Made by a program: the position numbers and the translations under genes
Source of the DNA: a bacterium
GTDB lineage: Bacteria > Myxococcota > UBA727 > JAUIJE01
DNA length: 64,000 bases
NCBI GenBank assembly: GCA_030431455.1
Contig: JAUIJE010000004.1
Coordinates: 310,001 to 374,000, forward strand
Direction of reading: 5' to 3'
The notes under the pieces: model-generated
What the model was told of the DNA's origin: nothing
Database searches by the model: none
What the model saw: only the letters and a program-made list of their open reading frames with translations
Part shown: positions 1,732-59,912 of the stretch, piece by piece
Position numbering within the stretch: position 1 is the stretch's first letter
How the letters are laid out: each line of letters opens with the position of its first letter

Positions 1732-3240
1732 ATGCACGCCGCTGTCGTCACCGCTCTGCTCAGCCCCTTCTTGGCCGCTGCCCCCGCCGAACCCGAGGCG
1801 GAGAGCGAGGGCAAAAAGTCGACCCACGCCGCGCCCCCGTCGGCGTCGCTGTCCGACCGCTTCACCTTCGACACCTGGGACGAGTGGGCCGCCTTGCGCA
1901 CCGAGGGCCCGCACCTCACCGTGGACCTGACCCCGGCGGTGGATCGGTTCTTTCCCGACGAGGACCACCCGCCCCCCCACCTGCCGGTGGAGGGCACCGA
2001 CGAAGGCGCGGCGGTGGCCGCGGGCACCGCCGAAGCCGACGACGGGCACCTCAGCTTCGTGGTGTTGCCCGACATTCGCTACAACCCCGACGAGGGGCTG
2101 GGCATCGGGGTGGCGATCCCCATCGTGTGGACCGAGCCCAACGTCAAGCCATACAAGTACAGCTTCGTGTTTCAGTTCGTGACCAGCACCAAGTTGGTGC
2201 AGGACCATGTGCTCATCTTCGACCTGGTGCGCATCCTCGGGTTGCCCATCCGCTGGTCGGGGCAGACCGGGTTTTACTCCTTCGCCGACGAGCCCTTCTG
2301 CGGCGTGGGGTCCACCGCGAGCTGCAGCGTCGACGACGCCGAGCAGTTCGCGGCCAACCAAGGCGCCACCGGGGACCAGGCCGACGAGATCGTCGAGCAG
2401 CGCTACATCATGCGGGTGGTGCGGCCGTATTTCTGGTCGATCCTGCGCCTCGAGCTTTTCGATTTTTTGGGCAAGTGGGAGGTGTTCGGCGGGCTGCGCA
2501 GCGAGGGGTACTTCCCGGGCTTTTTCGGCAATTTCCTCGAGGGGGAGCTGTGGGACGCGGGGCCCTACAAGGACTCGTTGTTCGCCGAATACGCCCCCGA
2601 TGGCCAGCCGGGGTTCGTCAACGTGCCCCAGGTCGGCCTGATGGTCGACTCGCGCGATTTCGAACCCTCCCCCCGCGCCGGCTATTGGATCGAGGCCTCC
2701 GCCCGGGGCGCGACCCCGCTGGCCTTGTCATCGTGGGCGTTTGCCGGTGGCAATGTCACGGGACGGCTGTACGTCCCCTTGCACCCCTCCAAGAACCTCA
2801 CCCTCGCCACCCGCGTGATCGCCGACGGCATCGTGGGCGACGCGCCGGTGCAAGAGCTCGCCCGCTTCGGGGGGTCGGTCGACTACCGCGGCTTCGGCGG
2901 GCGTTGGGTGGGGCGGGGCATGCGCCAGCAACGGTTCATCGGCAACATCAAGCTCGCCCACCAGACCGAGGTTCGCTGGGACGCGATCCGCTTCGACATC
3001 TCCGGCTTTTCCCTCGGGTTTGAGTTCGTGAGTTTTGTCGACGCGGGGCTCGTGCTCGCCGAGGGCGTCGACTACACCTTCCAGCACGGTCTCATCCGCC
3101 CGCTCAAACCACTGTTCACCGGCGGGGTCGGCCTGCGCTGGGTCATCAACCGCACCATCGTGGTGCGGGCGGACATGGGCTTTTCCCCCGAGGGGGGCCT
3201 GATGCCGCAGTTCTACTTCGACGGGCGCCACATCTATTAG
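1732..3240 (+). CDS. Omp85-like outer membrane surface antigen (D15 family)
   Basis: The 502-residue product begins with a short signal peptide (MHAAVVTALLSPFLAAAPA) followed by an acidic, poorly ordered stretch of about 100 residues. The rest is rich in alternating aromatic and polar residues, as expected for a beta barrel. Near residue 385 the segment VDYRGFGGRWVGRG resembles the conserved RGF/RG loop that plugs Omp85 barrels, and the protein ends in an aromatic residue (GRHIY), the usual signal for Bam-dependent insertion. No POTRA domains are visible, so it resembles the single-barrel patatin/D15-like or lipid-handling branch rather than BamA itself. Convergent with the channel gene downstream. 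Export and barrel are confident; transported substrate unknown. Confidence 0.75.
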   Translation: MHAAVVTALLSPFLAAAPAEPEAESEGKKSTHAAPPSASLSDRFTFDTWDEWAALRTEGPHLTVDLTPAVDRFFPDEDHPPPHLPVEGTDEGAAVAAGTAEADDGHLSFVVLPDIRYNPDEGLGIGVAIPIVWTEPNVKPYKYSFVFQFVTSTKLVQDHVLIFDLVRILGLPIRWSGQTGFYSFADEPFCGVGSTASCSVDDAEQFAANQGATGDQADEIVEQRYIMRVVRPYFWSILRLELFDFLGKWEVFGGLRSEGYFPGFFGNFLEGELWDAGPYKDSLFAEYAPDGQPGFVNVPQVGLMVDSRDFEPSPRAGYWIEASARGATPLALSSWAFAGGNVTGRLYVPLHPSKNLTLATRVIADGIVGDAPVQELARFGGSVDYRGFGGRWVGRGMRQQRFIGNIKLAHQTEVRWDAIRFDISGFSLGFEFVSFVDAGLVLAEGVDYTFQHGLIRPLKPLFTGGVGLRWVINRTIVVRADMGFSPEGGLMPQFYFDGRHIY

Positions 3241-3297
3241 CGCGGCCCGGACATCGACGAGAGGCGCTCGCCGGGCGTCCGCCGGTGCTGCCTTGGC

Positions 3298-4449
3298 CTA
3301 GGAATCGGTGCCTAGGTATTTGGCCACGAGGGCCTTCCAGTACCGTTCGTCGCCTTGGCGGCGGAGCAGGGCGGTGTTGAGCGGCTCGCGCAGAGGGCTC
3401 TTTTCTGGCAGGGCGATGCCGTAGCTTTGGGCGTCGAACACCGCTTCGAGCACCCGGACCTTGCCCTCTTGCTCCAGCCGCACATGGTACTGCAACAGCG
3501 GGCGGTCGTAGACAAAGGCGTCGATGCCGCCGTCGGCCACCGCGGCCAGCCCTTCGCTCACGCTCGCGAAGTGGGCCGGGAGCATGCCCTTTTCGGTGAG
3601 GTACCGCGCGCTGGAGCTGCCTTCGATGGTGCCGACCTTGGCCTTGGGCAGGTCGGCGGGGCCGGTGATGCCCGACTCGAGCTTGTTCACCGTGAGCGAC
3701 GAGGCGATGCCGGCGGTGAAGAACGAGATCAAGATGATGGCCGCGAACATCCACACCAGCCCCAGCAGCCGGCCGGGGAGGGTGCGGGGGGCGGCGTCGC
3801 CGTACCCGACGGTGGTCATGGTCACCGCCGACCACCAAAAGCCGTCCGCGATGCCCGACGCACCGGGGCGGAACTGCTCGGGGTTGTGTTTGCGTTCGAA
3901 CACCCAGGCCAACACGCCGACCACCAACAGCAACACCACAAGTCCGCCGAGGTATCCGCCGAGCTTGGGGGACAGGATGCTCGTCCACGATGAGCTCGCG
4001 GGGCGTGCGCTCACCGCGATGCCGAGGCCGGTGAAGTAGTAGGGATGCGAAAAGTCGAACTGGCTTTCCCGTTGGGGGGTCAGGGTGATGGCCGCGATGC
4101 CCACGTCGACGTCGCCCTTGGTGGTCGCGTCGAGCAGGCCCTTGAGATCGAACTCCCGAAACGTGAAGTCGCGGTCCAGGTCTTTGGCGAGGTCACGCCA
4201 GAGGTCGATGCTGATGCCCGACCAGCTGCCGTCGGCGCCCTTGATGGAGAAGGGCGGGGCCACCTTGGTCCCGACCACCAGCGGCCCGTCGGCCGGGGCG
4301 GGCGCGGACCCTTCGGTGTTGGCGGCGGTGGGCGCCGGGGCCGGCTTGGCCTTGGCTTTGCGCTTTTTGGCCGCGGCGGGGGCGGCGGCCACGAGCACGA
4401 CCAAGGCGGCCGCGGCGAGGTGTCGGGCGGTCAGCAAGGGCAATGTCAT
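3298..4449 (-). CDS. GluR0-like ligand-gated potassium channel
   Basis: The 383-residue protein has the layout of prokaryotic ionotropic glutamate receptors. A signal sequence (about 1-27) and a Lys/Pro/Ala linker are followed by a first ligand-binding lobe (56-148). Within it TLTPQRESQFDFS (123-134) carries the arginine (R127) that binds the alpha-carboxylate of amino acids in this family. A membrane helix (163-184), a pore loop with the potassium filter TVGYGD (213-218) and a second helix (228-250) come next, then the second ligand-binding lobe. The lobes should be periplasmic. It is the last gene of a minus-strand group, 12 bases after the S46 peptidase. The ligand is inferred to be an amino acid; potassium selectivity follows from the filter. 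Confidence 0.88.
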   Translation of the reverse strand: MTLPLLTARHLAAAALVVLVAAAPAAAKKRKAKAKPAPAPTAANTEGSAPAPADGPLVVGTKVAPPFSIKGADGSWSGISIDLWRDLAKDLDRDFTFREFDLKGLLDATTKGDVDVGIAAITLTPQRESQFDFSHPYYFTGLGIAVSARPASSSWTSILSPKLGGYLGGLVVLLLVVGVLAWVFERKHNPEQFRPGASGIADGFWWSAVTMTTVGYGDAAPRTLPGRLLGLVWMFAAIILISFFTAGIASSLTVNKLESGITGPADLPKAKVGTIEGSSSARYLTEKGMLPAHFASVSEGLAAVADGGIDAFVYDRPLLQYHVRLEQEGKVRVLEAVFDAQSYGIALPEKSPLREPLNTALLRRQGDERYWKALVAKYLGTDS

Positions 4450-50284: not shown

Positions 50285-52717
50285 TCAGCGGCGGGTCAGC
50301 GGCGCCTTCTTGAGGGTGGCCCCGTCGAGGTACAGCAACGCCGGCGACGCGCCGCCCACAGACGGGAAGCGCTCGATGCTGTCGAAGGTCACCATCAACG
50401 GGCCCGTGCGGTAGCCCGGGTCGTTGAGGTCGGTGAGGTAGAGGTCGCTGTCGACCAGGACCGCGCCTTCGTCGTACGTGCGCTCGAACACGAGGAGCGT
50501 GCCGTCGGGCGAGAACTGCGGCTCGGTGCCTTGGCCGAGGAAGATGCGCGCGCCGTCGGCGACCCGGTAGAGGTACAGGCCGGTCTTGAGCCCTTGGTAC
50601 ACCACGTGGGAGCCGTCGGGGCTGAGCACGGGGGCGAAGAAACGATCGTCTTCTGCGTCGGACGACACCTGCACAATGTCATTGTCGATGCGCAGGTACA
50701 CGTCGTGATGCTGTTGGAACACCCGGAGGGCAGGATGGGCGTCGTAGGGGCCGACCATCTGGCCCTTGTCGTCGACGAGAACGGTGGGGGCGTCCGCGTA
50801 CGGGGTCCGGCGCAGCCGGTGAAAGATGTGCGCGCCGTCCGGGTGCCAGCCCGCGCCGACGCCGACCGCGTCGCGGGCGACCAGCGGGGTGACGTCGCCA
50901 CGGTCGATGTCCAGCACCGACAGGGCGCCGTACCCCGGCTCCGCGAACAGCACCTGGTCGCCCAGGGGCGACAGCACCGGCGCGATCATGTCGCGCAGGA
51001 TCACGTCCTCGGCTTGTCCCAGTTCGAAGGTGGGTTCGCCCTCCTCGGCGTACAGCAGCGCGGGGTCGTGCGGCTCGACCACCACCCGGTCGTGGGGGTG
51101 GCAGGTGTCGGGGCTGACCCCGGGCACGTGGGCCTGGGCGGCTGGGGCCCCCAGCGCGCAGAGAAGCAGCAGGCCGGTGAGCCCGGTGACGTTGTCGCGT
51201 CGTCGACGACGGGGCAAGAACAGGAGCCCGGCGAGCGCGAACAGGGCGAGTCCGGTGCCGCTTCCCGTGCTGCTGCACCCGCCGCTGAGCGGGGCCGACT
51301 GGGGGTCGTCGTCGTCGGCGCTGGCGATGCGGACCCGGGGTTGTTCGCCGGATTCGGGTTCGGGCTCGAGGGAGACGGTGGGCTCGGGCTCGGGCTGGGC
51401 TTCGGGCTCGACGGTCACGGAGGGCTCCGGTTCGGGTTGGGGCTCGGGGCTGGGCTCGGGCTGGGGCTCGGGGCTGGGTTCGGGTTGGGGCTCGGGGCTG
51501 GGTTCCGGCTCGGGCTGGGGCTCGGGGCTCGGTTCGGGCTCGGGGCCGCTCTCGACGGGGGCGAGGCCCACCGAGCACCACACGGTGGCGTCGGTCTCGA
51601 CGGTGCAGGTGCGGGTCGCGGTGGTGTACCCGGCGAGGGCGACCTCGAGGGTGTGATCGCCGGCGTCGAGTTCAAATGTAAATGCACCGGTGCCCGCATC
51701 GGAGCTGGCGGTGTCGCCGGTGTCGGTCACGGTCACCGTCGCGCCGGCGAGGCGGACATCGGTGCTGCCGTCGGCTTGGATTTCGTACACCACCCCGGTG
51801 GCGGTGCCGGTGGTGGAGACGGTCGCGGGGAGCAGGCCGATCGAACACCAGCTGTCACCGCCGCTGGTGATGGTGCAGCCGCGGGTGGCGGTGTCGTAGC
51901 CCGGCGCGCTGGCGGACAATGTGTAGTCACCGGGGGCGAGGTCGATGCTGAACACCGCGTTGTCCGCGGACACCCCATAGGTGTCGCCGGTGTCGACGAC
52001 GGTGACGGTGGCCTGGTCGAGGCGGATGTCGGTGTTGGCGGTGCCTTGTCCTTGGTCTTCGAACACCACCCCCAGGGCGGTGCCGTCGGTGTTGCCGCCC
52101 CCGCCGTTGCCGGGATCGACGCTGACGCCGAGGTGCTGGCCCAGCGCGATGAGGTGCGCCTCGGCCGCGCGTTGCCGTTCGTCGGGGTCGGAAAGATACT
52201 GGATGTCCACGTTGCAGTTGTTCATGAAGCCGAGCTCGGTGAGCGTGGCCGGCATCGCGGTGGCGGTGAGCACGGTGAAGTTGGCGGTCTTGCCGCCCCG
52301 GTTGGTCAGGGGCCAGGTCGCGATCATCTGCGCCTGGATTTTGTTGCGCAGGTCGAAGCTGTTGTTGCTGCCGTTGGTGGCGCAAAACGTCTCGATGCCG
52401 GTGGCCACCACCCCGGCGGAGTTGGCGTGGATGCTCATGAACCGCGCCGCGCCGTTGCTGTTGGCGAACGAGGCCCGCCCGGAAAGCGACACGAACGAGT
52501 CGTCGGTGCGGGTCATGACCACGGAGAACCCGTTGTTCTGCAGGAGTGTGCGCAGGCGCAGCCCGGTGTCGAGGTTGACGTCCTCTTCTTCATACCCGCA
52601 GCCCACCGCGCCAGGGTCTGACCCGCCGTGTCCGGGGTCGACGGCGATGACGGTCTGGGCCGACGCGCCGGTCGCGAACAGAAAAGCGAGGGCAGCAAGT
52701 AGGTGCTTGTACGACAT
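50285..52717 (-). CDS. N-acetylmuramoyl-L-alanine amidase with internal MYXO-CTERM signal, fused in frame to a beta-propeller
   Basis: Residues 1-20 are a signal peptide. Residues 22-200 are a zinc amidase (Amidase_3) that cuts the peptide stem from peptidoglycan: DPGHGGSDPGA (His30), acidic YEEEDVN, SIHAN and LTELGF. Two Ig/carboxypeptidase-regulatory-like modules follow, each with a Cys pair, and a Pro-Glu repeat linker. Near residue 478 a MYXO-CTERM-like signal appears: GGCSSTGSGTGLALF, hydrophobic LAGLLFLP, then five Arg. Such signals normally end the protein. Here the frame continues with a signal-peptide-like segment (GLTGLLLLCALGAPAAQA) and a 280-residue WD40/PD40-like propeller (VLSPDGSHVVYQG, QFSPDGTLLVFER). 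The start follows GGAGGAGTCC. Confidence 0.86.
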   Translation of the reverse strand: MSYKHLLAALAFLFATGASAQTVIAVDPGHGGSDPGAVGCGYEEEDVNLDTGLRLRTLLQNNGFSVVMTRTDDSFVSLSGRASFANSNGAARFMSIHANSAGVVATGIETFCATNGSNNSFDLRNKIQAQMIATWPLTNRGGKTANFTVLTATAMPATLTELGFMNNCNVDIQYLSDPDERQRAAEAHLIALGQHLGVSVDPGNGGGGNTDGTALGVVFEDQGQGTANTDIRLDQATVTVVDTGDTYGVSADNAVFSIDLAPGDYTLSASAPGYDTATRGCTITSGGDSWCSIGLLPATVSTTGTATGVVYEIQADGSTDVRLAGATVTVTDTGDTASSDAGTGAFTFELDAGDHTLEVALAGYTTATRTCTVETDATVWCSVGLAPVESGPEPEPSPEPQPEPEPSPEPQPEPSPEPQPEPSPEPQPEPEPSVTVEPEAQPEPEPTVSLEPEPESGEQPRVRIASADDDDPQSAPLSGGCSSTGSGTGLALFALAGLLFLPRRRRRDNVTGLTGLLLLCALGAPAAQAHVPGVSPDTCHPHDRVVVEPHDPALLYAEEGEPTFELGQAEDVILRDMIAPVLSPLGDQVLFAEPGYGALSVLDIDRGDVTPLVARDAVGVGAGWHPDGAHIFHRLRRTPYADAPTVLVDDKGQMVGPYDAHPALRVFQQHHDVYLRIDNDIVQVSSDAEDDRFFAPVLSPDGSHVVYQGLKTGLYLYRVADGARIFLGQGTEPQFSPDGTLLVFERTYDEGAVLVDSDLYLTDLNDPGYRTGPLMVTFDSIERFPSVGGASPALLYLDGATLKKAPLTRR

Positions 52718-52848
52718 GTAAGGACTCCTCCACAACGACGACAACGTAGGGCGCAGACGGCGCCTCAGCATCGGCTGAACGTCGGACTCGGATTTTGTGT
52801 GCGCTGGGCCCCGTTTGGCGACGAAACCCTTCTGATACGAACCTGAAA

Positions 52849-55143
52849 GTGACCGACGTAAGCCAGCTCTTGCAGCAGCGGCGGGTGATCGATGATCGCC
52901 TGTTCGCAGAACACTCCGAGTTTTGCGCCGTGATGTTCACCGACATTGTCGGGTCCACGGCGTTTTTTGAGGCCAAAGGCGACATCGAGGGGTTGGCGCT
53001 GGTGCACCGGCACAACGAGATGTTGTTTCCCCTCGTCGAGCAGCACCGCGGCGAGATCATCAAAACCATCGGCGACGCGATCATGGCCACGTTCGCGTTG
53101 CCCGAGCACGCGGTGGCGTGTGCGGTGGCGATGCAGCGACGTTTGGCCGCGGCCAGCGATGAGCCCGATCCGATCAGAATTCGCATCGGGGTCCATGCCG
53201 GTCGGGTTTTGCGCGACGACGGAGACGTGTTTGGCGACACCGTGAACACCGCGGCCCGGGTCGAGTCGGCGGCGGGGGCGGGGGAAGTGCTGATTTCACA
53301 GGCGGTGTTTGATCGGCTGCCGAGCCCCAAGCCGCGGGTGGTCCGGCGGGACACCGTGCCGTTCAAGGGCAAAGCCGAACCCATGGACGTGATGGCCATC
53401 GACACCGGCGCGGTGCGGCCGCTGACCGAGGGGCGTTTGCTCACCCTCGAGCTCCGGCAGGGGCCCGACGGCCTGCGCGTGGGGTGGCGCGATGTCGACG
53501 AGGCCACGGTGAGCGCGCGCCTGTCCAGCGGGCTGACCCCGGACAAGGCGCAATCGATCATCGGCGGGCTCGAGGCGTTGTTCGCCACCAGCAACGGGCC
53601 GAGCGCCTACCGCACGGAGTTGCTGCACCGGGGCAAACGCTTGGCCGAGGCCGCGCTCACCGTCGACGGGGTGGCCCGGCTCAAAGCCGAGCCGCCCCAG
53701 TTTGTGTTGCTCGACCTCGACGAGGAATGGATCGCGGAGCCTTGGGAACTGATGGTGCCGGACAAAGCCCCCCTCGGGCTGTCATGTGGGGTGGGGCGGG
53801 TGGTGAGCGTCGAAGGCGCGGTGCGCCAAGACCCGGTGGCCCCCAGCGGCCGGGCGGTGGTCATCGCCGACCCCGACGGCACGCTCGAACACGCCGCGGC
53901 CGAAGGCCGGGTCATCGCCGGGCTGCTCCAAGAGCGCGGGGTGGACGAGGTCGAGCTCCTCACCGGCGCGGTCGATGCAGATACATTGGTGTCGCGCACC
54001 CGGGGCGCGGCCTTTGTCCACTACGCCGGGCACGCGCAGGTCACCGAGCAGGGCACTGAGCTGGTGTTGGCGGGGGGGAGCCTCACCGTGCGGGACTGGG
54101 CCGACCGGTTGGCGGGGGCGGTGCCCGCGTTTGTGTTTGTGAACGCGTGCCGCTCCTCGGGGGGGCAGGGCTACCGCGACCAGTCGCGCGGTACCGCACA
54201 CGGCGCCGGGGCGTTGCTCGCGGCGGGGGTGCGCCATCACCTCGCCCCCGCCTTCGCGGTCCCCGACGACGACGCGACCTTCTTCGCCGCCCGGGTGTAC
54301 GAGGATTTGCTCGACGGCCAGCCGGTGGGCGAAGCGGTGCGCGCGGCCCGCCAAGCCGCCGCCGATCAGCAGCACGCGTCGTTGGCGTTCGCGGCCTACG
54401 TGCTGTACGGCGACCCCCGCACCGCGCTGTTCGCGGCGCGGCCCGCGCAGAAGCGGGCGTCGTTGCGGGCGGTGAGCGGCGAGCAGGTGCGGTTGCCGCG
54501 CACCGGGACCGCCCATGTGTTGCCCGCGCCAAAGCCGTTCCCGGTGTTTGCCGTGGCCGCGGGGGCGTTGGTCCTCGTCGCGCTCACCCTCGTGGCCGTG
54601 CTGGTGTCGGGCGAGGGCCCGGCGCCGTCCCCCGCAGACCCACCCCCGGTCGTCGGGGGGGCGCCGGTCACGCCGCCGTCTCCGCCGGTGACCGCGAAGG
54701 TGGCGCACACCGGGGATGTGCGGGTGTCGGTGTTGCCGTTCAAGACCGTGGGCGAGGCGGACCAGGCGGCCGCGCTCGGCGAGGGGCTCGCGGAGGCGTT
54801 GACCACCGGGCTCGCGGGCGCGCCGGGCATGGCGCTCATCGAGCGCGGCCAGATCGACGTGGACCTCGGAGAGATCGAGTTTTCCCAGAGCAAGTACGTC
54901 GACCCCGCGACGAGGGCCCAGCTCGGCAAAATCAAGGGCGCCGAGATCGCAGTACTCGGTGCGGTGCAGCGCGCGGGCGCGCAGCTGCGCGTCACCGCGC
55001 GTTTTGTCGACGTGGAGACCGGGAAAATCATCGAGCAGGTGGTGACCACGGGCGAGGCCGCGGATGTGTTCGGGCTGCAGGACGCGGTCACCGCGCGGGT
55101 CAAAGAGAAGCTCGGCCCGGTGGTGCAGGGAGCCCGGCCATGA
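52849..55143 (+). CDS. Adenylate cyclase - CHAT protease - membrane helix - CsgG/FlgO-like sensor
   Basis: The 764-residue protein has four parts (GTG numbering). Residues 22-190 are a class III cyclase: metal Asp in FTDIVGST (D32) and IKTIGDA (D76), base-selecting Lys (K72) and Asp (D126) as in adenylate cyclases, and NTAAR (N133, R137) for the transition state. Residues 280-530 are a CHAT caspase-like protease with His in VHYAGHA (H395) and Cys in VNACRSS (C434). Residues 566-587 are a membrane helix, then a Pro-rich linker. Residues 622-758 resemble the CsgG/FlgO-like domain of envelope proteins (VSVLPFKTVG, RVTARFVDVETG). Cyclase and protease face the cytoplasm. It overlaps the next gene (ATGA). 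A TTG at 52795 is the alternative start. Confidence 0.88.
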   Translation: MTDVSQLLQQRRVIDDRLFAEHSEFCAVMFTDIVGSTAFFEAKGDIEGLALVHRHNEMLFPLVEQHRGEIIKTIGDAIMATFALPEHAVACAVAMQRRLAAASDEPDPIRIRIGVHAGRVLRDDGDVFGDTVNTAARVESAAGAGEVLISQAVFDRLPSPKPRVVRRDTVPFKGKAEPMDVMAIDTGAVRPLTEGRLLTLELRQGPDGLRVGWRDVDEATVSARLSSGLTPDKAQSIIGGLEALFATSNGPSAYRTELLHRGKRLAEAALTVDGVARLKAEPPQFVLLDLDEEWIAEPWELMVPDKAPLGLSCGVGRVVSVEGAVRQDPVAPSGRAVVIADPDGTLEHAAAEGRVIAGLLQERGVDEVELLTGAVDADTLVSRTRGAAFVHYAGHAQVTEQGTELVLAGGSLTVRDWADRLAGAVPAFVFVNACRSSGGQGYRDQSRGTAHGAGALLAAGVRHHLAPAFAVPDDDATFFAARVYEDLLDGQPVGEAVRAARQAAADQQHASLAFAAYVLYGDPRTALFAARPAQKRASLRAVSGEQVRLPRTGTAHVLPAPKPFPVFAVAAGALVLVALTLVAVLVSGEGPAPSPADPPPVVGGAPVTPPSPPVTAKVAHTGDVRVSVLPFKTVGEADQAAALGEGLAEALTTGLAGAPGMALIERGQIDVDLGEIEFSQSKYVDPATRAQLGKIKGAEIAVLGAVQRAGAQLRVTARFVDVETGKIIEQVVTTGEAADVFGLQDAVTARVKEKLGPVVQGARP

Positions 55144-56609
55144 CCCGGGCGGCGGTGGTGTTGGCGCTGGCGATGGGGGCGGCGGGCCCGGTACACGCCG
55201 CGTCGCAGGCCGCGCCGTATGCTGTCATGCCATTCAAAAACATTGGCGGCGGGGAAGAGCTGGCTTGGCTCTCGTTGGGCATGGCCGAGACCATGGTCTC
55301 GGACTTGAAGAAAGAGAAGTTCGCGGTGGTCGAGCGCGACCAAGTGGGGGCGGCGCTGGCCGAGCTGAAGCTGCAACAAAGCGTGAACGTCGATGCATCG
55401 ACCGCGGCGAAGGTGGGCAAGATCGTCGGGGCCCGCACGGTGGTGATCGGCGGCTACCAGACCGCGGGCCAGCAGCTGCGCATCACCGCGCGCTTCGTCG
55501 ACGTCCAGACCGGCGTGGTCCGGCAGACGGCGAAGGCGACCGGAAAGGTGGGCGCGGTGTTCGCGCTGCAAGACCGCATCGTGTCCCAGCTCACCGGCAG
55601 AAAGGTCCAGGTCCGGCGGCACCGGGCCACGCCGAAACGCGCCAAGAAGGGCGCGTCGGCCGCGCCGAAAAAGGTCGCGGTCAGCGCTGAGACCATGAAG
55701 CCGATGCTCGATGCCTACCGCTTGTACAGCGAGAGCTTGGGCCAGTCCGACCCCATGGCCCGGCGGGTGGCGCTGTTGCAGTCGCTGCAAGCGGACCCGG
55801 GATTTGCTTACGCGCTCGACGAGCTGGACGCGCTTGAGCTGCGTTTGGCCGCGTACAAAAAGCAGGCCCTGCGCGAGGTGTTGGCCCGCATCGACGCCGC
55901 CATCGCCATCTACCGGGACGCGACGAGGCCCGACGAGGACCGGGCCAAGGCGGCGATGGACGCGATGCGTGACCTTCAGGTCAACCGCCAGTACACCGCG
56001 CTGCTCGAGGTGTGCCAGGAGATCGTCGAGCTCCAGCTGCCCCCGTACTACACCATGAACATCAGTGAATATGCATTGCACGCGTGCTTCACCGCCCACC
56101 AGCAGCTGGTGCACACCGATGAGGCGATGCGGGTCGGCGAGCAGTTCCTCAAGACCTACCCCGGCAGCCAGCTCCACCAGAGCGTCACCCTGGGGGTTGA
56201 GCAGTTGATCAAGCAGCAGCGCGAACGCAAGAAGCTCTACGCGGCCTACGACGAGGAGTTGGCGGAGCTCGAAGAACGCGCCGCGGGGTTTCGCGCCCGC
56301 GACGAACGCCGGCCGAACCCCGAGCGCCTCGCGGGCCAGCTGGTCCAGGTCGAGAGCCAACGCTGCAGCCTGCTCGCGCGGCACTACCACGTCGAAGAGG
56401 CCGAACGTCACTGCAAAGAGTTCATCGACGCCCACGCGGGCGAAGAGCGCGCGGACCCTTGGGTGTACCAGGCCCGGGTCCAGCTGTTCTTTCTCTACCG
56501 GAACCTCGGCCGCTTCGATGACGCCCGGCGCATCGGAGCCGACCTCATCGTGCACCACGGGGACAAAGGCGCGGACGTCGCCGACACCGCCCGCTGGTTC
56601 CCCCGGTAG
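55140..56609 (+). CDS. Secreted CsgG/FlgO-like protein with helical repeats
   Basis: The 489-residue product starts with a signal peptide (MTRAAVVLALAMGAAG, cleavage after HAA). Residues about 25-150 are the same CsgG/FlgO-like domain as the C-terminus of the preceding gene product: YAVMPFKNIGGGEEL, VVERDQVGAALAELKLQQ and LRITARFVDVQTGVV. A basic linker (HRATPKRAKKGAS) and about 300 residues of TPR-like helices follow. It is translationally coupled to the cyclase-CHAT gene. The shared domain suggests that the two proteins interact or sense the same ligand in the periplasm. No catalytic motif is seen. Confidence 0.82.
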   Translation: MTRAAVVLALAMGAAGPVHAASQAAPYAVMPFKNIGGGEELAWLSLGMAETMVSDLKKEKFAVVERDQVGAALAELKLQQSVNVDASTAAKVGKIVGARTVVIGGYQTAGQQLRITARFVDVQTGVVRQTAKATGKVGAVFALQDRIVSQLTGRKVQVRRHRATPKRAKKGASAAPKKVAVSAETMKPMLDAYRLYSESLGQSDPMARRVALLQSLQADPGFAYALDELDALELRLAAYKKQALREVLARIDAAIAIYRDATRPDEDRAKAAMDAMRDLQVNRQYTALLEVCQEIVELQLPPYYTMNISEYALHACFTAHQQLVHTDEAMRVGEQFLKTYPGSQLHQSVTLGVEQLIKQQRERKKLYAAYDEELAELEERAAGFRARDERRPNPERLAGQLVQVESQRCSLLARHYHVEEAERHCKEFIDAHAGEERADPWVYQARVQLFFLYRNLGRFDDARRIGADLIVHHGDKGADVADTARWFPR

Positions 56610-58053: not shown

Positions 58054-58166
58054 GGCCGGACGGTAAGCGCTTTGTGCCCCTCCCGTCGAGAACCGCGGGC
58101 GCAAATGCGCAAACACCCTTGCGTGTCATCTCGGTCGTGGCAGGGTCGGCGCCGAAGGAGGAGACC

Positions 58167-59912
58167 ATGCGCAAGCTGTTCGTGCTGTCTTTTGGCCTGT
58201 TGATCGCATCCTGTTCGTCCGATGAGGCGGCAGAGAAGCCCGATGAAGACCCCACCGAGGCCGCCCAGGCCCAGGAGGAGGCCCCGGCGGAGGCGGCCCC
58301 CGACCCCGCGGTGGAGGCCTGGAAAGAGCGGCTGTCCCGCTACGCGCGCCCCGAGCTCACCGCCGACATCTCGTCGTTGCCGGACTCGGAAAAACAAGCG
58401 CTCTACGAAATCATCGAGGCGTCCAAGCTCCTCGACCCGATCTTCAACCGCCAGGCGTGGGCCGGCAATCCGGAGCTCATCGCCGAGCTGGAGAAGGACA
58501 CGTCAGACGTCGGCCAAATGAAACTGCAGTACCTCAAGCTGCACCGGGGACCGTGGGACCGGCAAGAGCACTTCGCCGCGTTCGCCACCGACAAGACCCG
58601 GCCGGAAGGGGCCGGGTTTTATCCCGAGGACCTGACCAAAGAAGAGTTCAAGGCGTGGATCGAGGCCCACCCCGAGGACAAAGAAGCGTTCGAAGGCCTG
58701 TTCACCGTGGTGCGCCGCGACGGGGACAAGCTGGTGGCGGTGCCCTACAGCGAGGCGTACAAAGAGTGGCTCGAGCCCGCCGCCGCTCACCTCAAAAAAG
58801 CCGCGAGCTTGACCACCAACAAGTCGTTGGCGACGTTCCTCAACAGCCGGGCCGACGCGTTCTTGTCCGATGACTACTACCAGTCGGACAAAGACTGGAT
58901 GGACCTCGACAGCCAGGTCGAGGTCACCATCGGGCCCTACGAGGTCTACGAGGACAACCTCTTCGCGTACAAGGCGAGCTTTGAGTCGTTCGTGACCGTG
59001 AGCGATCCCGCCGCGTCGGAGCAGCTCGCGAAATTCAAGAACATGCTCCCGGAGATGGAACAGAACCTCCCGCTGCCAAAGGAGCTCAAGACCAAACGCG
59101 GCGCGGAAAGCCCCATCCGGGTGGTGGACTTGGTGTTCACCGCCGGCGACGCCAAAAAGAGCGTGCAGACCATCGCGTTCAACCTCCCCAACGACGAGCG
59201 TGTTCGCAAAGAAAAGGGCGCCAAGAAAGTGTTGCTGCGCAATGCCATTGAGACGAAGTTCGACCAGATTCTGCGGCCCATCGCGGCCCAGGTGCTGGCC
59301 GAAGACCAGCAGCAATACCTGAGCGCGAGCGCGTTCTTTCACGAGGTGCTCTTTCACGAGCTGTCCCACTCGCTCGGCCCCGCGTTCGTGAAGCAGACCG
59401 CGCAGCAGTCGCGCAAGAACAAAGGCAAAAAGGTCGAAGTTCGGCTCGCCCTCGAGGAGACCTACAGCGCCATCGAGGAGGCCAAGGCCGACGTGATGGG
59501 CGCGTACAACATCCTGTTCATGATCGAGAAGGGTGAGTTCCCCGCTGAGTTCAAAGAGCAGCTGTTGGTCTCGTATTTCGCGGGGTTGTTCCGGAGCGTG
59601 CGCTTCGGGGTGGCCGAGGCCCACGGACAAGGTGCGGCGATGCAAATCAACCGCCTGCTCGAGGCGGGGGGCGCGACCTTCGACGAGGAAAAGCAGGTGT
59701 TCACCGTCGACATGCAGAAGCTGGAGCAGGGCATCACCGACCTGGTGCGCGACCTCTGCATGCTGCAATCCGCGGGGGACAAGGCCGGGGCCGAGGCCCT
59801 GCTCAGCAAGTACGGGGTGATGAGCCCGCCGATGGAGAAGGCCCTGGCCAAACTCGGCGGCATCCCCGTCGACATCCGGCCGGTGTTCGTGCTCGAGGGC
59901 AAGGCCCTCTGA
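58167..59912 (+). CDS. M49-like (dipeptidyl peptidase III-related) metallopeptidase lipoprotein
   Basis: The 581-residue product has a lipobox (LLIASC) and an acidic linker before the folded part. The zinc motif is HELSH (in FHEVLFHELSHSLGP, near residue 395), a HExxH form rather than the HExxxH of classical DPP III. The third ligand Glu is in EEAKADVMGAYN, some 45 residues later, as in the EEx(R/K)AE/D signature of M49. This matches the bacterial Zn-hydrolase branch of M49. The start follows GAAGGAGGAG. It would act outside the cytoplasm, anchored to a membrane. Confidence 0.83.
   Translation: MRKLFVLSFGLLIASCSSDEAAEKPDEDPTEAAQAQEEAPAEAAPDPAVEAWKERLSRYARPELTADISSLPDSEKQALYEIIEASKLLDPIFNRQAWAGNPELIAELEKDTSDVGQMKLQYLKLHRGPWDRQEHFAAFATDKTRPEGAGFYPEDLTKEEFKAWIEAHPEDKEAFEGLFTVVRRDGDKLVAVPYSEAYKEWLEPAAAHLKKAASLTTNKSLATFLNSRADAFLSDDYYQSDKDWMDLDSQVEVTIGPYEVYEDNLFAYKASFESFVTVSDPAASEQLAKFKNMLPEMEQNLPLPKELKTKRGAESPIRVVDLVFTAGDAKKSVQTIAFNLPNDERVRKEKGAKKVLLRNAIETKFDQILRPIAAQVLAEDQQQYLSASAFFHEVLFHELSHSLGPAFVKQTAQQSRKNKGKKVEVRLALEETYSAIEEAKADVMGAYNILFMIEKGEFPAEFKEQLLVSYFAGLFRSVRFGVAEAHGQGAAMQINRLLEAGGATFDEEKQVFTVDMQKLEQGITDLVRDLCMLQSAGDKAGAEALLSKYGVMSPPMEKALAKLGGIPVDIRPVFVLEGKAL

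Follow-up and report, generated by a model that had tools for sequence, protein, structure and literature searches.

HetF is a cyanobacterial membrane protein with the order CHAT, transmembrane (TM) helix, and TPR, which interacts with FtsI and on which the synthesis of septal peptidoglycan depends (PMC8406250). The TPR-CHAT protease of type III-E CRISPR (Craspase) has a His-Cys dyad (H585/C627; PMC9729208) and cuts Csx30 in trans (PMC11106740). A metacaspase-TM-CHASE2 receptor of Trichodesmium has a predicted cytoplasmic caspase-like domain below an extracytoplasmic receptor domain (PMC3501461). We analysed a window, i.e., a stretch of 64,000 nucleotides from a genome of the phylum Myxococcota, in which one gene (A) joins a class III adenylate cyclase, a CHAT domain, a TM helix, and a FlgO-like domain, and the next gene (B) encodes a second FlgO-like domain followed by a helical region. 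To our knowledge, the triggers of bacterial caspase-like proteases are mostly not known; with a CHAT domain covalently joined to a cyclase and a partnered periplasmic domain, a trigger could be sought through a cAMP read-out.

Domain architecture of the two genes

Gene A (52849..55143; this gene, gene B, and all their features lie on the plus strand) starts with GTG at 52849, has its stop ending at 55143, and encodes 764 aa, for which full-length relatives exist. Third-position GC is 0.89 in both A and B, as expected of real genes. All three Pfam matches of A (Guanylate_cyc, CHAT, and CsgG) exceed the curated cut-offs, and the full-length AlphaFold2 model is of moderate quality (pLDDT 69).

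The cyclase domain (residues 21–184, 52909..53400) matches Guanylate_cyc (PF00211) over residues 21–178 (1.7e-25) and resembles Ma1120 in sequence and fold. The initial annotation described a complete class III cyclase, and all six catalytic residues are indeed present: D32 and D76 (metal), K72/D126 (adenine), and N133/R137. D126 was assigned from the alignment to Ma1120 and is invariant in the three-way alignment; D32, K72, D76, D130, N133, and R137 are invariant across the fusion family wherever that part is assembled. Profile match and catalytic residues place the window protein and its relatives among the class III nucleotide cyclases, and the K72/D126 pair predicts ATP as the substrate, with cAMP as the product. 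In the source genome, the cNMP-binding domain is matched 26 times, and the proteins bearing it could be readers of this cAMP.

The CHAT caspase-like protease domain, together with its N-terminal part, spans residues 197–525 (53437..54423; alignments A3 and A7), with the CHAT match (PF12770) at residues 279–522 (6.1e-25), and is the sole CHAT in the source genome. Its putative catalytic residues His395 (H-x-A-G-H; codon 54031..54033) and Cys434 (N-x-C; codon 54148..54150) are 39 residues apart and invariant in 8/8 homologues. The profile match and the conserved dyad both identify it as a CHAT protease with the His-Cys pair originally reported.

A single TM helix was annotated at residues 566–587 (54544..54609), which agrees with the hydropathy maximum (568–586) and with a helix in the model (572–585). 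Basic residues lie upstream of the helix and none just downstream, which predicts that the enzymes are inside and the FlgO domain outside. The helix is preceded by a disordered linker (about residues 533–567) of low model confidence, which varies in length and sequence among relatives and has no conserved cleavage site. The position of the CHAT domain, between the cyclase and the membrane anchor and adjoining this linker, suggests that it could act mainly in cis: a periplasmic signal would lead it to cut the linker or a partner and free the cyclase from the membrane, so that the protease would be the switch and cAMP the sole output. That no candidate substrate gene is conserved near the fusion loci is consistent with this, but the variable linker without a shared cleavage site and the activity of the Craspase CHAT in trans on Csx30 argue against it, and we regard cis cleavage as quite unlikely.

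The predicted periplasmic FlgO/CsgG/LpoB-like domain of A (residues 622–753, 54712..55107) matches CsgG at residues 620–706 (1.4e-7). The CsgG/FlgO-like domain noted earlier is present, but the match covers only positions 6–98 of the 210-position profile and does not include the CsgG barrel, for which reason we rejected curli secretion through a CsgG channel. A is best read as a receptor that crosses the inner membrane once, with both predicted enzymes in the cytoplasm and the LpoB/FlgO-like domain in the periplasm.

The stop of A and the start of B share an ATGA overlap (55140..55143), and the two genes are likely translationally coupled. Gene B (55140..56609, 489 aa) has a signal-peptide-like N-terminus and a FlgO/LpoB-like domain (residues 26–152, 55215..55595) that matches CsgG (1.9e-7) and FlgO (5.3e-6). 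In fold, this domain is closest to LpoB (Foldseek E 1.5e-4), the GNA1162 lipoprotein, and TolB-N; LpoB is an activator of PBP1B. It is homologous to the corresponding domain of A (41% identical), in line with the relatedness claimed in the initial annotation. In the FlgO tree, A-type and B-type domains form two separate clades (support 98/96), as expected of paralogues that have been kept together. The remainder of B, initially described as helical repeats, is helical and can be refined to a TPR-like superhelix (residues 183–486, 55686..56597) from the model of B (pLDDT 86.8) and Foldseek matches to TPR proteins. Cys409 (conserved in 11/11 sequences) and Cys425 (10/11) of B possibly form a disulfide.

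Spread of the fusion and of an enzyme-free pair

The cyclase-CHAT-TM-FlgO fusion occurs in 8/195 genomes of the phylum, patchily distributed over seven families, and in six of these the gene immediately after A is B. The initial interpretation is favoured in that the fusion and its partner recur in related genomes, with the catalytic residues retained as described above and the membrane helix present in the homologues, albeit weak in genome G193. The ATGA overlap is also found in G006, G185, G092, and the Myxococcaceae junctions inspected, and is GTGA in G032. The pairing of A and B is not absolute: in G193 the cyclase-CHAT gene and a duplicated B lie on opposite strands, about 4 kb apart, and in G135 A lacks an adjoining B and carries an in-frame TAG towards the end of the CHAT domain. 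G135 also encodes a caspase-like C14 protease fused to an A-type FlgO domain.

Thirteen further genomes (Myxococcaceae-like) encode a TM-FlgO gene and B without cyclase or CHAT, and a 4-base overlap joins the two genes in all five junctions read. In Myxococcaceae, this enzyme-free pair adjoins a divergent LytS/LytTR pair instead. Its existence suggests that the periplasmic pair is the core of the locus and the enzymes a detachable output. A two-output receptor with paired periplasmic domains, as initially proposed, remains the best reading of the anatomy of A and B, but the two outputs are optional and not the essence, given that the pair is kept without either enzyme. The locus family would thus be a periplasmic pair that can gain or lose its output in the cytoplasm. 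The FlgO tree, with few supported forks and one mis-framed row (Ashort_G023), does not tell which of the two forms, with or without enzymes, is the ancestral one.

A contig scan with the single A protein returned no loci, its patterns probably being too strict, and a scan with alignment A3 (one pattern) returned five loci, all already known, and is a weak test of absence elsewhere. A long open frame (L103) proved mostly spurious; what is real in it encodes a secreted CsgG-TPR protein of the ordinary kind.

Genomic neighbourhood and proposed mechanism

Beyond A and B, the fusion loci share no conserved neighbour. In the window, a gene for a secreted N-acetylmuramoyl-L-alanine amidase with PEGA/CarboxypepD_reg domains and PD40 repeats (50285..52771, minus strand; Amidase_3, 2.4e-45), one of only two Amidase_3 genes in the source genome, is divergent from A at a distance of 77 bp. 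An Amidase_3 gene also adjoins B in G193, and in G006 a GH25 gene adjoins a B paralogue. Amidases at two of seven fused loci have a chance probability of about 0.0003–0.008 under assumed rates, for a pattern noticed post hoc, and the amidases at these two loci are not closely related. The neighbouring amidases, GH25, and NlpC/P60 are only a lead towards peptidoglycan; fold similarity and the two amidase neighbours perhaps link the locus to it.

These neighbours bear on the possibility that the locus encodes a HetF-like cell-wall or division factor, in which the main function would be to control, through CHAT, how peptidoglycan is synthesised or remodelled, the LpoB-like domains and TPRs would touch synthases or hydrolases, and the cyclase would be an added regulator. 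The domain order, membrane location, FtsI binding, and septal role of HetF point in this direction, as do the LpoB fold in B, the adjoining Amidase_3 and GH25 genes, and a match of the G006 CHAT to the HetF model (NF045509; 7e-6). That match reaches only 24.6 bits, far below the cut-off of 1200 bits, the window protein has no match, and the amidases are confined to two loci, so that we consider a HetF-like factor unlikely.

Caspase-like proteases and nucleotide cyclases are both used in anti-phage systems (Craspase and Pycsar), which, with the patchy spread of the fusion, could suggest a receptor that senses phage damage to the envelope and induces dormancy or death through CHAT and cAMP. The conflict role that the initial annotation had raised is nevertheless very improbable and was rejected as the main reading: PADLOC matches reflect only the resemblance to PycC that is generic to class III cyclases, phage and plasmid records match the cyclase piece only and hold no whole-protein relative, no effector, nuclease, or mobile-element gene was seen beside the locus in the window, and the pair is retained without its enzymes in 13 genomes.

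We instead propose, with about even confidence in the mechanism as a whole, that A and B are an envelope-sensing receptor pair that sets both cAMP synthesis and CHAT proteolysis; the persistence of the pair without enzymes agrees with a sensory role of the pair and an output that can be detached from it. B would be secreted to the periplasm, where its FlgO-like domain would pair with that of A and its TPR-like superhelix would bind a component of the envelope, perhaps one belonging to the peptidoglycan machinery. Class III cyclases act as dimers; when the A-B complex changes, the geometry of an A dimer would change with it, and this geometry would set cAMP synthesis and open the CHAT active site. 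One periplasmic event could in this way produce two outputs, a second messenger that is reversible and proteolysis that is not. In developmentally complex bacteria, such a system would connect second-messenger signalling to regulated proteolysis and possibly to the state of the peptidoglycan. It is possible, and we suggest only tentatively, that the locus represents an undescribed class of transmembrane receptor, in which one periplasmic signal is passed to a cyclic nucleotide and a caspase-like protease in one polypeptide, with FlgO-TM and secreted FlgO-TPR proteins as an exchangeable front end.

Comparison with known systems

Literature searches that combined CHAT with a cyclase, CsgG, or FlgO returned nothing relevant. 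The earlier statement that no described system has this exact layout stands insofar as we found no described CHAT-cyclase fusion in the literature and databases searched, but the locus is less isolated than it implied, given HetF and cyclase-[FlgO-like]-TPR proteins.

HetF resembles the locus in its membrane location, its TPR, and a CHAT domain N-terminal to the membrane helix, and differs from A in that its published domain scheme has neither a cyclase nor a FlgO-like domain (PMC8406250). The dyad of the Craspase TPR-CHAT is comparable to H395/C434, but that protein is soluble and activated by gRAMP-RNA, and its similarity to the CHAT domain of A is very weak (E about 0.07–0.1); no gRAMP or Csx30 occurs among the nine neighbourhood genes scanned, which sets the locus apart from type III-E CRISPR. 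The similarity of A to PycC is weak (2.9e-13) and its partner is a predicted secreted FlgO-TPR protein, which separates it from Pycsar, where a PycC-type cyclase is paired with a TIR or TM effector that senses cyclic pyrimidines. The Trichodesmium receptor shares the predicted arrangement of a caspase-like domain inside and a receptor domain outside, but has a C14 metacaspase and a CHASE2 domain with four helices, and no cyclase is mentioned (PMC3501461). The periplasmic domains of A and B belong to the fold and sequence family of LpoB, GNA1162, TolB-N, and CsgG/FlgO; compared with this family, the domain of A is anchored through a helix to two predicted cytoplasmic enzymes, that of B is fused to a TPR-like region, and the CsgG barrel is absent.

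The closest known layouts are HetF and the rhizobial cyclase-[FlgO/TolB_N-like]-TPR proteins (e.g., WSH67681.1). The latter share with the locus a class III cyclase at the N-terminus, the TPR, and between them a FlgO-like stretch to which B is similar. Both genes score below the 400-bit cut-off of NCBIfam TIGR04510 ("putative peptide modification system cyclase"), a model for proteins of this kind, with 46 bits for A and 20.9 for B. The parts of a cyclase-TM-FlgO-TPR layout are all present at the locus, but they are divided between two chains and interrupted by CHAT, whereas the rhizobial proteins lack CHAT and have one FlgO-like domain on one chain instead of one on each of two. A followed by B resembles such a rhizobial protein split in two. 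The parts of the locus are known, but their conserved combination appears to be undescribed.

The cyclase-CHAT-FlgO fusion and its partner gene

Gene A (52849-55143, forward strand) encodes a protein of 764 aa with Pfam matches to a class III cyclase domain (residues 21-178, 1.7e-25), a CHAT domain (residues 279-522, 6.1e-25) and a partial CsgG domain (residues 620-706, 1.4e-7). The cyclase, which is nearest to Ma1120 in both sequence and predicted fold, has both metal aspartates, the Asn/Arg pair, and a Lys/Asp pair of the type predicted from sequence to favour ATP. The CHAT dyad residues are H395 and C434, and no other CHAT domain is found in the window genome. Because the sole hydrophobic stretch (568-586) comes after a basic, disordered linker, the enzymes are predicted to lie inside and the FlgO-like domain outside. 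A self-cleaving switch that releases the cyclase is a rival explanation for a protein built in this way.

Gene B (55140-56609, forward strand; 489 aa) overlaps gene A through ATGA and has Pfam CsgG/FlgO domain matches. In its structure model (pLDDT 86.8) an LpoB/GNA1162/TolB-N-like domain precedes a TPR-like superhelix, of which two cysteines recur among the aligned members (C409 in 11/11, C425 in 10/11).

The fusion is present in 8/195 genomes of the phylum, spread over seven families: the window genome (G000), G006 and G032 (45% and 43% full-length identity to window A, respectively), G185, G193, G194 (split over two contigs), G092 (cut by the contig end), and G135. All eight keep the His and Cys of CHAT without exception, and the cyclase residues are likewise invariant in every copy assembled across that part. 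The G135 copy (L091:8707-11136) has an in-frame TAG near the CHAT end, between the cyclase-CHAT and TM-FlgO halves, which may mark a broken copy or be a draft error. B immediately follows A with a 4-base overlap in the window, G006, G032, G185 and G092, and also immediately follows it in G194 (16 bases). No B adjoins A at the G135 locus, and in G193 a duplicated B lies ~4 kb from A on the opposite strand, as one 919-aa gene (L093:6750-9509) made of two fused B proteins (FlgO-TPR-FlgO-TPR). In G092, short repeats (CGCTCATCCTGAGGGGAGCGAGCGTTC and similar; L095, ~2960-3560) separate the overlapping start codon of B from its signal-peptide-like stretch, and the reading frame stays open through them.

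A scan across about 85,000 species, each represented by one genome, yielded just five loci, in Deltaproteobacteria, Myxococcales or Myxococcaceae MAGs, a result that reflects one search pattern and is no proof of absence elsewhere. A defence role is another rival explanation; in phage and plasmid records only the cyclase piece of A was matched, with nothing for the remainder.

Enzyme-free pairs and related FlgO genes

In thirteen Myxococcaceae-like genomes of family f13 (2 of genus g21, 11 of g51), both B and the TM-FlgO half of A are strongly matched, unaccompanied by a cyclase or CHAT domain. The copies inspected for their junction (G023, G042, G148, G152 and G163) all share the 4-base overlap seen in the window. 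A divergent LytS-type histidine kinase and LytTR response regulator lie upstream of the enzyme-free pair in most inspected loci (upstream of the short A gene at L099, L100, L023, L097, L098 and L105). A second gene in G135 (L102:9939-11444) joins a signal-like N-terminus, a C14 caspase-like protease and an A-type FlgO domain, and its product is apparently extracytoplasmic. The A-type and B-type FlgO domains form separate, well-supported clades in a tree and are therefore old paralogues kept together. The periplasmic pair is thus the core of the system: the enzyme-free pairs, the C14-FlgO gene and the jointly retained paralogues support a sensory pair with exchangeable output over a fixed two-output machine.

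Proposed mechanism and the peptidoglycan lead

On the best reading, A is most likely an inner-membrane receptor. Its FlgO-like domain would pair with the one in B, whose TPR-like part would bind some component of the envelope. The state of the complex would set both cyclase dimer geometry and accessibility of the CHAT dyad; we infer the steps leading from binding to output. Proteins with cNMP-binding matches, of which the window genome has 26, could act as readers of cAMP.

A secreted N-acetylmuramoyl-L-alanine amidase gene (Amidase_3; 50285-52771) lies divergently 77 bp from A; the genome has just one other Amidase_3 gene. Another divergent Amidase_3 gene adjoins the duplicated B of G193, the two amidases having no close kinship, and a GH25 lysozyme gene adjoins a B paralogue in G006. 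These neighbours and the LpoB fold suggest peptidoglycan status as the signal, in a small sample spotted after the fact. The window amidase frame also encodes PEGA-like domains, Pro/Glu repeats, a mid-frame Cys/helix/Arg sorting-type tail and then PD40 repeats, and is possibly two genes read as one. At 58161-59912 the window encodes a lipoprotein-like member of the Peptidase_M49 (dipeptidyl peptidase III) family.

Comparison with known systems

HetF, which binds FtsI, is a membrane protein with the layout CHAT-TM-TPR (PMC8406250), and a HetF-like function in peptidoglycan synthesis is a rival to the receptor reading; the HetF model matches the G006 CHAT weakly. Outside the fusion family, the nearest CHAT domains belong to f13 proteins that also carry Peptidase_M17_N. 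The plasmid search with B matched rhizobial adenylate/guanylate cyclase proteins, and the one inspected has an N-terminal cyclase, a B-like FlgO stretch in the middle and a C-terminal TPR. Far below its cut-off, TIGR04510 also aligns in this order, first to the cyclase of A and then to the FlgO/TPR part of B. No description of a CHAT-cyclase fusion was found in the literature searched, which is no proof that none exists. Given these relatives, A and B are best placed with the transmembrane receptor cyclases; what is new in them is the inserted CHAT domain and a partner split off as a gene of its own.
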